Positions 5,450-15,530 of a stretch of DNA of 64,000 nt are shown in pieces. A model generated the notes under the pieces. The model did not search any database and was not told where the DNA came from. It worked only from the letters and a program-made list of their open reading frames with translations. Both the position numbers and the translations under genes were made by a program. Source of the DNA: Candidatus Zixiibacteriota bacterium (GTDB taxonomy: Bacteria; Zixibacteria; MSB-5A5; GN15; FEB-12); the NCBI GenBank assembly GCA_034003725.1, contig JAVEYB010000008.1, positions 62,001 to 126,000 of the forward strand, given 5' to 3'. Within the stretch, counting starts at the first letter, position 1; every line of letters starts with the position of its first letter.

Positions 5450-5526
5450 CGGCCGCGGACCGGCGCCTGCGACGGCGCCGTGTCGGCAGCGGAGCTTGGA
5501 CTGCCCCATAGGAAAGGATGGTGTCC

Positions 5527-8238
5527 ATGGCCGGATCGTCGCGCAAGAATCACAAGCGATCCCGGAAAACATCGCGAGCGAACGGGCGCACTCGCGCCGA
5601 GCGTGCTCCTCAGCAGGCGTTCGACGAACTGCTTGCCGACGTCCGACGCGATCCCCAGGACTTCGCGGCCCGGCTTGCGGTGGCGACGTTTTACCTGACG
5701 CACAATCTGCACGACAAGATTCCGGAGGTCCTGGAGCCGGTGCAGAGCCAGTACATGTCACGCGACGTACGTCGGCGCATCCAGTTCGACCGCCTACTCG
5801 CGTTCGGGTATGCCACCACCCATCAATTCACCCGGGCGGAAGAGGCCGTTCGCCGCGGGGTAAGCGCCTGTCCTGACGCGGTGGATTTTCGTTTCATCGA
5901 AGCTTACGTGGCCATTTCGCTCGGGGAATATCGCCGTGCGGTTGACGCCGGGGCCGCGTGCCTCGCATCGATGGAGCGTCACGACCGGGGGGAACGGGTC
6001 GAGGGTGATTTCGCGGTGACACCGGCGCACCGTTCCCAGTTGCTGAACATAATCGGCTCGGCGCATATGGATTCGGGCAGTCTGCGCGATTCGATCGCCC
6101 CGTTCGAGCAGTCTATCCGCCTGGACGGCGGCAACTACCTGCCGTATCTGAATCTTGCCCGCGCCTGGTACCGCCTCGGGGAACGTCAGCGAGCACGGGA
6201 TACCGTGCAGCGGGGGATGGAAGCGTGCCGGCAGGTGCAGGAACTTCGCATGCTCGCCGCCGCCCTGCAGGACAGACCGACGGTGTCGGCGTGCATGATC
6301 GTGAAAAACGAGGAAGAGCTGCTGCCCGGATGTCTTGCGTCGATTCGCGACTGGGTGGACGAGATTGTCGTCGTGGATACCGGATCGAGCGACCGGACGG
6401 TCGCGATAGCCGAGTCCTACGGCGCCCGCGTGTACCACCAGCCGTGGGAGGGCGACTTCTCCAAGCACCGCAATTTCTCGATTGAGCACGCGACATGCGA
6501 CTGGGTGCTGATTATCGACGCAGACGAGGAATTCGTTACCGAAGATGTTTCGAAGTTGAAACCGCTGTTGTCCGACGAGCGCTACGATATCGTGTGCCTT
6601 GACGTCTTCAACGTGTACGCCAACAAGCCCGATCAGGTGACGTTTTTACCGTCGATGCGTCTGTTCCGCCGCCGGCTGAACCTTCGGTATGAAGGAATCG
6701 TTCACAACCAGCTGCGGGTACCTTCGGACGCCCGTACGGCCCGGATCGGCGTGCGCATCAAGCACTATGGATATGGCCTGTCGCAGGAGAAAATGCGGCG
6801 AAAGGTGGAGAGGTCCAGGGCGCTGCTGGAGAAGCAACTGGCCGACAATCCCAACGATCCGTTCGCGCTGTTCAACTACGCGCAACTGCTCCGGGGGAAA
6901 GATGATTTCGATCGGGATGACGCCGAGAGGATTCTTCACGCCGCGACGCGAGTGGTGGAACTGACCGACCCGTCGAAGCGGGGGCGCCGCCACCTGCATC
7001 TGATGGCGCTGGACCAGCTGGCCTGGTGCAATTTCAAGTTGCAGCGATATGACGAGGCGCTGACGGCGTGCGACCAGGCGCTGGAAATCCGGCCTGACTA
7101 CCTGGACGCATTGCTTTTGCGCGGACACATTCTCAGTACCCTGCAGCGGTATGAGGAGGCCCGTCAGTCTTACGTGGCGTATTTGCGGGAGCAGGCAATC
7201 TACGAGCCAAGCAAAGAGCATGATCCGTTGATCCTGCAACATGTCGACAGCCGCACGACGGCTCATTACGGGCTGGCGCTGCTCGCACATGACGAGGGGA
7301 GAACGGACGAGGAGAAAAAGCACCTGCAGAAGGTCGGCGCGCTTACTCCCGGTTACATGAAGTCGGCACTTCGGCTGGGCCAGATTTTGCTGGCCGAGGG
7401 AGACCTCGCCGGGGCGGAGACGCAGTTTCGTATCCAGAGGGAGACAAACCGGGAGGGGGTGGAGGCATTGCTCGGTTTGGCGTCGGTGGCGAATCGGCGG
7501 CAGGATGCCGGGGCGGCCGAACGGTATCTCCACGACGTGCTGGCAATAGAACCTGCCAACACGACGGCGCTTACGAGGCTGGTCGAAATCTGTCGCGACA
7601 GCGGCCGCTACGACCAGGCAGTTGAGTTGCTTGGGCGGGCGAGCGGCGGACCGGGCGGCGATACGGCCAGAGAGACCAGTATCGCGCAGTCGTACTTCGA
7701 GTTGGGCAGATTTCGTGAAGCGGCGGATCACTACCGCAGGATAATCGAACGGGGGGATGCCGGCGCGGAGACCTACAACGACCTGGCCAACTGCTATTTC
7801 AAGCTCGAAGAGCTCGATCAGGCGGAATTGTTCTATCGGGAGGCACTTTCGATCCGGCCGGGCGACTATTCGGCTGCCCGGAATCTGGGTCTGGCGCTGG
7901 CTCGTCAGGAGCGCTATGAAGAGGCCATAGAATTCCTGGAAGCCGTTGCGGGCAGTACGGATGAGTCCGCCGATCTGGTTCCGGTGGTGGGAGATTTATA
8001 TCGGCGGCTGGGTCAGGCCGGTCGGGCGCTCTCATTTTATGAGCGGCATTTGGCGACCAATCCGGGGGACACGCTGGCTCTGTTTCATCTTTCCGAGTGC
8101 TATCTTGCTCTGGGACATACGGATTCGGCAAGAATGGGATATCGGCGCATCTTGCAGATCGATCCGGGTTTTCGCCCGGCTCAGGACCGTATAGCGGCTC
8201 TGAGCGGCGCTTTTGCGGGCGTCGACGCGGGCCGGTAA
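5527..8238 (+). CDS. family 2 glycosyltransferase flanked by TPR arrays; probable flagellin/axial-protein modification
   Basis: Large (903-residue) cytoplasmic protein. Residues about 20-245 form TPR-like helices. Residues about 250-420 are a GT-A/family 2 glycosyltransferase: SACMIVKNEEELLPGCLASI, EIVVVDTGSSDRT and the metal-binding DxD-type IIDADEEF. The remaining ~470 residues are at least eight further TPR units (e.g. KGRRHLHLMALDQLAWCNFK, YNDLANCYFKLEELDQAELF). The ATG at 5527 is chosen because AGGAAAGG (5510-5517) lies 9 nt upstream of it; an in-frame ATG at 5518 would directly abut that SD. The position between fliW and fliC suggests it glycosylates flagellin or hook-associated proteins. 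The acceptor and sugar cannot be read from sequence. Confidence 0.85.
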   Translation: MAGSSRKNHKRSRKTSRANGRTRAERAPQQAFDELLADVRRDPQDFAARLAVATFYLTHNLHDKIPEVLEPVQSQYMSRDVRRRIQFDRLLAFGYATTHQFTRAEEAVRRGVSACPDAVDFRFIEAYVAISLGEYRRAVDAGAACLASMERHDRGERVEGDFAVTPAHRSQLLNIIGSAHMDSGSLRDSIAPFEQSIRLDGGNYLPYLNLARAWYRLGERQRARDTVQRGMEACRQVQELRMLAAALQDRPTVSACMIVKNEEELLPGCLASIRDWVDEIVVVDTGSSDRTVAIAESYGARVYHQPWEGDFSKHRNFSIEHATCDWVLIIDADEEFVTEDVSKLKPLLSDERYDIVCLDVFNVYANKPDQVTFLPSMRLFRRRLNLRYEGIVHNQLRVPSDARTARIGVRIKHYGYGLSQEKMRRKVERSRALLEKQLADNPNDPFALFNYAQLLRGKDDFDRDDAERILHAATRVVELTDPSKRGRRHLHLMALDQLAWCNFKLQRYDEALTACDQALEIRPDYLDALLLRGHILSTLQRYEEARQSYVAYLREQAIYEPSKEHDPLILQHVDSRTTAHYGLALLAHDEGRTDEEKKHLQKVGALTPGYMKSALRLGQILLAEGDLAGAETQFRIQRETNREGVEALLGLASVANRRQDAGAAERYLHDVLAIEPANTTALTRLVEICRDSGRYDQAVELLGRASGGPGGDTARETSIAQSYFELGRFREAADHYRRIIERGDAGAETYNDLANCYFKLEELDQAELFYREALSIRPGDYSAARNLGLALARQERYEEAIEFLEAVAGSTDESADLVPVVGDLYRRLGQAGRALSFYERHLATNPGDTLALFHLSECYLALGHTDSARMGYRRILQIDPGFRPAQDRIAALSGAFAGVDAGR

Positions 8239-8305: not shown

Positions 8306-8312
8306 TGATGAT

Positions 8313-8512
8313 ATAAAAATACGAAGGGTGAATTACGGCACGGGACTGAAGCAGAGGAGGGTCTCAAGGAGGTACAGACGAAGAGAAACGGTGTGAATAG
8401 GACCATCACGACCGATGGACTACGCGACATAGGAAGTGACATGACAGTGAAACCGAGTACGAACACGATGGGTAAGGAAACCTTACTGTAATACTCAAGG
8501 AGGAAGGACCAC
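8313..8512 (+). promoter_or_regulatory. long fliC mRNA leader with paired CsrA-type sites
   Basis: The leader contains CTCAAGGAGG twice, at 8363-8372 and 8494-8503. The second is the fliC SD. The first has no start codon at SD distance. Further GGA triplets lie between them. Just before the SD is a perfect 6-bp hairpin, GTAAGG-AAA-CCTTAC (8472-8486). Two spaced GGA sites, one covering the SD, is the arrangement known from CsrA-controlled flagellin leaders such as Bacillus hag. Binding itself is an inference. Confidence 0.6.
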
Positions 8513-10693
8513 ATGTCACTTCGCATCAATCACAACATTGCGGCCATCAATGCGAACCGCAACCTGAAGCTGACGACCACGGCTCTGAACAAGTCGATGG
8601 AGAAGCTGTCGTCAGGTTTTCGCATTAACCAGGCCGCCGATGATCCGGCAGGATTGGTGATTTCCGAGCAGTTCCGCTCGCAGATTGCGGGTCTCAACCG
8701 CGCGATCGAGAACTCGGAAGGATCGATTTCGATGATCCAGACCGCGGAAGGCGCGCTGACTGAGATCAACAGCCTGCTGGTTTCGATGCGCGAACTGGCC
8801 ATCCACGCCGCCAACGAAGGCTTCAACGACGCCGACCAGCTGGCAGCCGACCAGGCCGAAATCGAGAATGCCATCTCGACGATCGACCGTATCGCCGCCA
8901 ACACGCAGTTCGGTACGAAGAAGCTGCTCGATGGCTCCAAGGACAACATCGCGACGATCACGTCGTCCAACTCGTCCGAGCTGCGGATTCGCCGCTCAGA
9001 CCTGACCGACGGTACCCATTCGGTCACGATCACCAAGACGGCCGAATCGTCTGCGTCGCTGAACACGGCGTCGCTGGGTCTGTCGCTGCGGAACACCGAC
9101 GGCGATCCGTACAACCTCGACGAGCGCATCCACAACGTGGACGTCGTGCAGGCTTCCGACGTTGCCAAGAAGCGTTCCGGTTCGATCACGCTGACCGATG
9201 CGTTCGGCAACGGTTTGCAGGTCAATACCGCGTCCGCGATTGCCACGATCAACGCCACCGCGACCTCGGGCGCTGTCCAGGCCTCGACCGCCGGCGTGTA
9301 CAACGTCGTGGTCAACTACCAGGAGAACGGCGAGTCCCCGACGGGCAACCAGACGTTGACCGTGACGCTGGCCGACGGCGACACGCAGGCTGACGTTGTC
9401 AGCAAGTTGAACACAGAGGTCGCGCTGAACGCCGGCCTGTCCGGCAAGGTCGTTTTCGCGGCCGACGGCGACGAGATCTCGCTGCAGACCACCAACCGCG
9501 GCGCGCAGTACTCGATCCAGACCGGCGCCTCGACGAAGGTGTCGGGCGGCACGGCCGGCGTCAACTACCTGACCTTCACGTCCGGTACCGCTCGTGGTGT
9601 CTCCGACGATGGTCTGAACATCACCGTCAACACCGAGCAGAACGGCAACACGAACGCCCAGATTCAGTTGTCCGCGACGACGTTTACGTCGTACTCGCAG
9701 CTGGTCGATGATATCAACGCCGCGCTGGCTTCCAGCACCGCGTTTGCGACGATCTCGGGCGGCGTCAACGACATCGAAGCCTACCTCGTTGACACCAACA
9801 AGATCGAATTCCGGACGAAGGACGAGGGTTCGAGCTACTCGATCCAGATCCTCAGCGACGATGGTGACACCACCACCGGCAACCTGCGCTTCGCGCTGAA
9901 CATGACGAACGACACGCTGGCCGTTCGCGGCACGAACGCGATCATCCGGTTCGACAACTACACGAACGAAATCGACAAGGTCGCCTATGCCACGACGCAG
10001 AACGTGACCCTGTACAATGCGGCGGATGCGGATCCGAGCCGCGGCAGCATCGACATGATCGTTGCCAAGGCGACGACCGGTATCAACGTCGGTAACCTGC
10101 TGCTCGATGTCGATGCGGCGAGGTTCGACGTGCGTCTCGACGGCGGTCCGGCCCAGTCCGTGACGGCCGGCTTCAACGCCACCGTATACAACGCCGACCG
10201 CACCGAGTCGCTGCTGTTGAGCGTCGGTCTGACGTCGACGGGCGGCACCGAGACGATCAACAACACCGACCAGTCGCTGGTCTTCCAGATCGGCGCCAAC
10301 GTCGGCCAGACCGCTTCGATCGGCCTGCGCGACATGTCCGCCTCGTCGCTGGGCAAGAACATCGTCAGCAACCTGTTCCGGTCGCTCTCCGAGATCGACG
10401 TGACCACGGTTGAGGGCGCTCAGGATGCCCAGACGATCATCGATGCGGCCATCAACGAGGTTTCCACCACGCGTGGTACGCTCGGTAGCTTCCAGAAGAA
10501 CACGCTGGAATCCAACCTGCGTAACCTCCGGATCGCGGCTCAGAACCTGACGGCTTCCGAGTCGATGATTCGTGACACCGACATGGCAGAAGAGATGTCA
10601 GAATTCACGAAGAACCAGATTCTGGTCCAGGCCGGCACCGCCATGCTGGCTCAGGCCAACCAGGTTCCGCAGACGGTTCTGTCGCTCTTCTAG
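8513..10693 (+). CDS. fliC: flagellin
   Basis: Major filament subunit, exported and polymerised outside the cell. Residues 1-142 are classic N-terminal D0/D1 (SLRINHNIAAINANRNL, KLSSGFRINQAADDPAGLVI, MRELAIHAANEG, DRIAANTQFGTKKLLDG). Residues about 623-726 are the C-terminal D1/D0 (SFQKNTLESNLRNLRIAAQN, ASESMIRDTDMAEEM, LAQANQVPQTVLSLF). The 480-residue surface domain between them is large (726 residues in total) and Thr/Asn/Asp-rich with few Lys and no Cys seen. It includes segments resembling flagellin_IN (TVTLADGDTQADVVSKLN). Codons are strikingly uniform (AAC, GAC, CTG, ATC), as in a highly expressed gene. Confidence 0.97.
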   Translation: MSLRINHNIAAINANRNLKLTTTALNKSMEKLSSGFRINQAADDPAGLVISEQFRSQIAGLNRAIENSEGSISMIQTAEGALTEINSLLVSMRELAIHAANEGFNDADQLAADQAEIENAISTIDRIAANTQFGTKKLLDGSKDNIATITSSNSSELRIRRSDLTDGTHSVTITKTAESSASLNTASLGLSLRNTDGDPYNLDERIHNVDVVQASDVAKKRSGSITLTDAFGNGLQVNTASAIATINATATSGAVQASTAGVYNVVVNYQENGESPTGNQTLTVTLADGDTQADVVSKLNTEVALNAGLSGKVVFAADGDEISLQTTNRGAQYSIQTGASTKVSGGTAGVNYLTFTSGTARGVSDDGLNITVNTEQNGNTNAQIQLSATTFTSYSQLVDDINAALASSTAFATISGGVNDIEAYLVDTNKIEFRTKDEGSSYSIQILSDDGDTTTGNLRFALNMTNDTLAVRGTNAIIRFDNYTNEIDKVAYATTQNVTLYNAADADPSRGSIDMIVAKATTGINVGNLLLDVDAARFDVRLDGGPAQSVTAGFNATVYNADRTESLLLSVGLTSTGGTETINNTDQSLVFQIGANVGQTASIGLRDMSASSLGKNIVSNLFRSLSEIDVTTVEGAQDAQTIIDAAINEVSTTRGTLGSFQKNTLESNLRNLRIAAQNLTASESMIRDTDMAEEMSEFTKNQILVQAGTAMLAQANQVPQTVLSLF

Positions 10694-15427: not shown

Positions 15428-15450
15428 GCGACAGATACGAAAGCTTTCAA

Positions 15451-15474
15451 GCCCCGCCTAGGCGGGGCTTTTTT
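15451..15474 (+). terminator. Rho-independent terminator closing the flagellar block
   Basis: GCCCCGCCTAGGCGGGGC (15451-15468) is a perfect palindrome immediately followed by six T. The flanking AA/TT pair extends the stem. It lies 24 bp after the HDOD stop. Confidence 0.9.
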
Positions 15475-15530
15475 GTTGGGTGCGTGAGCGTTACGGCCCG
15501 CCGCGGCGGGGTTCGTTTTGTCATTTTTTG

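Follow-up and report, generated by a model that had tools for sequence, protein, structure and literature searches.

Organization of the flagellin locus

The window, by which we mean the whole stretch of 64,000 nucleotides analyzed here, comes from a 3.7 Mb genome with relatives in Candidatus Zixiibacteriota. It carries the gene for the main flagellin, fliC, and between flgK and fliC lie csrA, flgL, fliW and a gene for a TPR-glycosyltransferase (Table 1). CsrA, for which a single match was found in the genome, resembles over residues 2–79 the CsrA chain of the FliW complex 5dmb. Its sequence continues to residue 116, and since the matches of relatives extend to residues 95–113 the long tail is conserved. 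The relatives also have csrA and fliW near fliC, and every one of the 37 good genomes from relatives has FliW. An earlier note, made from the letters of the window, had placed csrA and fliW upstream of fliC in the same block, and this is where both are found.

The gene at 5518–8238, between fliW and fliC, specifies a TPR protein of 906 aa that contains an internal glycosyltransferase domain of family 2 and is possibly a flagellin glycosyltransferase. Elsewhere in the genome there is a second, divergent flagellin (L002, G000:C1:35116-35502; 42% identical), the leader of which has none of the elements A, B and C described below. A palindromic stretch at 15449–15519, which gave weak sub-threshold matches to Rfam on both strands, is probably a terminator or an intergenic repeat.

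The sigma28-type promoter upstream of fliC predicts a transcription start at approximately 8312. A sigma28-like motif, located with a regular expression, precedes most of the orthologues and results in leaders of 149–227 nt. For comparison we used 69 distinct leaders belonging to orthologues of the main flagellin in the order and in neighbouring groups, together with the leaders of 17 paralogous flagellins and some 36 leaders from other phyla.

Table 1. Genes and leader elements at the fliC locus, with positions in the window
Feature	Position	Strand	Basis or remark
csrA, 116 aa	2643–2993	+	Pfam; long C-terminal tail
fliW, 160 aa	4967–5449	+	Pfam; solved FliW 5dmb matched, E 2.5e-17
sigma28-type promoter, TTAAGTTA-N11-GCCGAAAA	8279–8305	+	Sequence; similar motif precedes most orthologues
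Element A, orphan SD-like GAGGAGGG (AGGAGG 8355–8360)	8354–8361	+	No start codon behind
Upstream 10-mer, CTCAAGGAGG	8363–8372	+	Directly after element A; specific to the window genome
Element E, hairpin CGGTGTGA-ATAGGACCA-TCAC.ACCG	8389–8414	+	AUNGGA in loop; candidate CsrA site
Element B, CATAGGAAGTGACATG	8428–8443	+	CAUNGGA motif; its GAAGTGACATG is the anti-start
Element C, hairpin GGGT-AAGGAA-ACCT	8470–8483	+	Candidate CsrA site, counterpart of BS1
Element D, fliC SD within CTCAAGGAGG	8494–8503	+	Candidate CsrA site, counterpart of BS2
fliC start region, CATGTCACTTC	8512–8522	+	Partner of element B; constrained codons TCA CTT
fliC, main flagellin, 726 aa	8513–10693	+	Pfam Flagellin_N and Flagellin_C

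The duplicated 10-mer

The earlier note had drawn attention to twin copies of CTCAAGGAGG, and the window does contain exactly two, with no other on either strand of the 64 kb; the position of the promoter places both inside the leader of about 200 nt. The expected number of copies in the window is 0.08, and none of 100 shuffles gave two. Seven of the ten letters are SD core, and AAGGAGG by itself occurs five times in the window against 5.6 expected. The downstream copy was correctly taken as the SD of fliC, with the ATG at 8513 and the product a flagellin by Pfam. Behind the upstream copy no ATG, GTG or TTG was seen at SD distance, again as the note had it.

The further proposal that the upstream copy is a CsrA anchor (BS1), the partner of the SD copy, did not survive the comparison of related leaders. 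In its favour the copies are identical, which is unlikely by chance, and in the window the upstream one can occupy the loop of a weak GTCT/AGAC hairpin. Against this, the exact upstream 10-mer is kept in a single leader out of 69, namely the window's own, and it is replaced by other sequence in the nearest relative with the same flagellin (L004; N-terminus 94% identical). The copies lie 131 nt apart, beyond the 10–63 nt published as the reach of a CsrA dimer that binds two sites (review PMC7652899), and across the relatives the region has no hairpin tendency (mean z −0.03). The feature that relatives do share at this place is element A, a looser SD-like motif described below. The note had named absence from close relatives as a ground for refutation, and for the exact 10-mer such a loss is observed. 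We consider the anchor role highly improbable and have rejected the idea of a conserved CsrA site in the upstream copy. A likelier anchor is the hairpin at 8470–8483, which the earlier note had not noticed, nor had it noticed the leader element complementary to the start codon.

Hairpin C and the Shine-Dalgarno sequence

An A.GGA motif stands directly upstream of the SD in 64 of the 69 orthologous leaders, usually in the loop of a hairpin (for example GGGGT-AAGGAC-ACCCC and GCGGG-CAGGGATGT-CTCGC). In the alignment 83% of the stem cells are paired, far better than slid controls, and there is covariation, both bases having changed in 40 cells where shuffles give 16 (0/500 shuffles). A search for stand-alone copies of element C gave one match in the genome, that inside the fliC leader. 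AAGGAGG, element D, is found in 66/69 leaders, and the distance from the GGA of C to that of the SD is 23 nt in the window and 21 nt as the median of the order. The arrangement of hairpin and SD is also present in some flagellin leaders from other phyla (L145, L146 and L152).

Compared with a leader of the hag/flaA type, the locus possesses csrA together with a fliW at the flagellin locus, a GGA site overlapping the SD, and a second GGA in a hairpin loop within 10–63 nt, with which an alternative fold competes in the window genome. This alternative hairpin pairs 8471–8477 with 8481–8487 and engages two of the GGA bases of element C (−6.8 vs −2.7 kcal/mol locally).

In Bacillus subtilis hag the CsrA sites are BS1 (A51–A55) and BS2 (C75–G82) (PMC8523840). 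As here, FliW and CsrA are present in the genome and the upstream and SD GGA motifs lie some 21–24 nt apart; the Zixibacteria leader, unlike that of hag, is about 200 nt long and contains additional GGA elements, the orphan element A and a helix with the start codon, none of which is mentioned for hag in the parts of that source drawn on here. The flaA leader of Campylobacter jejuni (SL1/SL2; CsrA titration) has an ANGGA hairpin loop and a site at the RBS, with 21-nt spacing and compensatory changes in the stem (PMC4894983), and in these respects is similar. It is, however, only 45 nt long with two sites, whereas the Zixibacteria leaders have up to five GGA-type elements (all five were found by motif in 34/69) and a long-range lock. 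For Clostridioides difficile fliC two CsrA sites are likewise predicted, BS1 TGACAAGGATGT and BS2 CTAAGGAGGG (PMC8523840), but its leader is of 91 nt and, again in the parts of that source drawn on, a start-codon lock is not mentioned.

Based upon synteny, the covarying AAGGA hairpin, the AAGGA-bearing SD and the spacing, control by CsrA and FliW is the best reading for this flagellin and, as a deduction from sequence, is well supported. This portion of the earlier proposal stands; its choice of the upstream 10-mer as anchor does not.

Element B and the start codon

Element B is the most distinctive element of the leader. Its motif, CAT.?GGA, occurs in 61 of the 69 leaders against 1.9 expected, and in none of the 17 paralogue leaders; stand-alone copies were sought, and the one match in the genome is inside the fliC leader. 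Within it GAAGTGACATG is the exact reverse complement of CATGTCACTTC at the start of fliC. The predicted pairing probability of the two in the window is 0.996. Throughout the order the start region is paired to B with a mean of 0.57, compared with 0.10 when B is shuffled, and among leaders with the B motif the values are 0.76 and 0.11, respectively. RNAalifold, supplied with an alignment of 38 leaders and no structure, returned both the B-start helix and hairpin C. The fold of the whole window leader by itself is no stronger than shuffles (z −0.29), and it is therefore the comparison that carries the case.

The codons at the start of the gene are constrained as well. Codon 2 is TCA in 51 of 56 cases of Ser and codon 3 is CTT in the genes of 48/69 leaders, each against 13% in the rest of the gene; downstream in fliC of the window TCA accounts for 2 of 62 Ser codons and CTT for none of 52 Leu codons. 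Codon 2, which is TCA or GCA, has undergone four changes on the tree, and three of these are matched in B by GUGA to GUGC or GUGU; the codon-2 change in L041 has no compensation in B. The base of B which pairs with codon 2 never changes unless codon 2 does. Since these events are few a sign test is powerless on its own. An apparent covariation at alignment columns 76–196 (the third base of Arg4 against the N of CATNGG) was dropped, 20 of 38 leaders being unpaired there.

From these comparisons we regard the predicted long-range helix between B and the start as conserved across the order. According to the model, 10.9 kcal/mol are needed to open the start region, as against 12.2 in the paralogues, and our claim is therefore for a specific, conserved partner and not for an unusually strong overall structure. 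Of the three bases of the GGA in B the helix takes two, which would make CsrA binding and start pairing at this element mutually exclusive. It encloses C and the SD, and could thus coexist with CsrA on that pair.

One might suppose that the complementarity is a by-product of constraints on protein and leader, absent in cells, as the start region encodes the conserved MSLRIN and the paralogues have other structures of similar cost. The synonymous choice of TCA-CTT far above background, the compensated changes at codon 2 and the loss of pairing when B is shuffled all speak against this, and we think it quite improbable. Somewhat less improbable, though still unlikely, is that the B-start helix acts without CsrA, as a thermosensor or RNA switch, with temperature, a second RNA or another protein to open it. 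A strong conserved helix is predicted to close the AUG, and it would exclude CsrA at B; however, B retains the CAUNGGA core in families with weak complementarity to the start, which suggests a CsrA-type role for it, and no Rfam covariance model matched the leader.

Elements A and E

Element E has AT.GGA in 46/69 leaders (6.4 expected), and in leaders of the window's type its arms exceed shuffles in complementarity (mean z −1.6). Element A, [AG]GGAGG, is present in 46/69 orthologous leaders against 5.1 expected and in 0/17 of the paralogues. In the window it follows the predicted transcription start by about 40 nt, and in the orthologous leaders it is mostly found at +35 to +50. No start codon was found within 4–14 nt of the AGGAGG in the window; a small upstream ORF behind A was considered and dropped, there being almost no start codon at SD distance in the leaders.

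Element A might be a ribosome element and no CsrA site, either a standby for the 30S subunit while the start is still locked or a stabilizer of the 5' end, of the STAB-SD type. We give this close to an even chance; it covers element A alone and is compatible with control of the leader by CsrA and FliW. The element is SD-like, has no start codon and varies very little in its distance from the predicted transcription start, and its GGA, unlike those of C and E, has no complementary flanking arms (mean z −0.03). Variants which have lost the GGA still pair with the anti-SD, for example AAGGGGGG in L009. Yet just 42% of leaders have an anti-SD energy that ranks among the best 5% of shuffles. STAB-SD sequences are linked to RNase J. 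An SD-like sequence near the 5' end with no start codon is what we find at element A, but a search of the genome with a single NCBIfam model (TIGR00649) for RNase J gave two weak, partial matches below the cut-off, which weakens the STAB-SD reading, although a divergent enzyme is possible.

A model for the control of fliC translation

We propose, with a probability of about 0.7, that the fliC leader (approximately 8312–8512) is a CsrA-repressed, FliW-relieved translational control RNA that has been extended by elements A, E and B and by the B-start helix. The elements, their conservation, the stem of C and the helix come from sequence comparison; CsrA binding, relief by FliW and a limitation of initiation by the helix are what we infer. 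A CsrA dimer would span the distance from the AAGGA of hairpin C to the SD (element D) and so block binding of the 30S subunit, until export of flagellin freed FliW to strip CsrA from the leader. The extension in the Zixibacteriota would consist of the upstream GGA elements E and B, the orphan SD-like element A, and the B-start helix, which would keep the AUG closed. Either CsrA at B would open the start, or the helix would be a second lock, opened by the ribosome.

A more elaborate version makes the leader both a two-state switch and a sponge. Element B would be engaged either with the start, which it would lock by long-range pairing, or with CsrA. The mRNA, being abundant and having up to five GGA sites, would titrate CsrA in bacteria in which FliW is the antagonist, and for translation the 30S subunit would have to load at element A before the lock could open. 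We offer this as a speculation which is rather doubtful.

The kind of regulation proposed for fliC, CsrA-FliW control of flagellin, is an ordinary one; the conserved start-codon lock is an unusual extension of it. Our search of the literature did not find the conserved leader extension described, nor did it find a paper naming both Zixibacteria and CsrA. The proposal would carry flagellin control of the Bacillus and Campylobacter type into the Zixibacteriota and add to it a conserved, testable part, namely a leader element which would pair with the start codon and thereby fix synonymous codons at the beginning of a major structural gene. The locus may thus be a clean system in which to study how a start codon locked in this way and an SD covered by CsrA are opened together.
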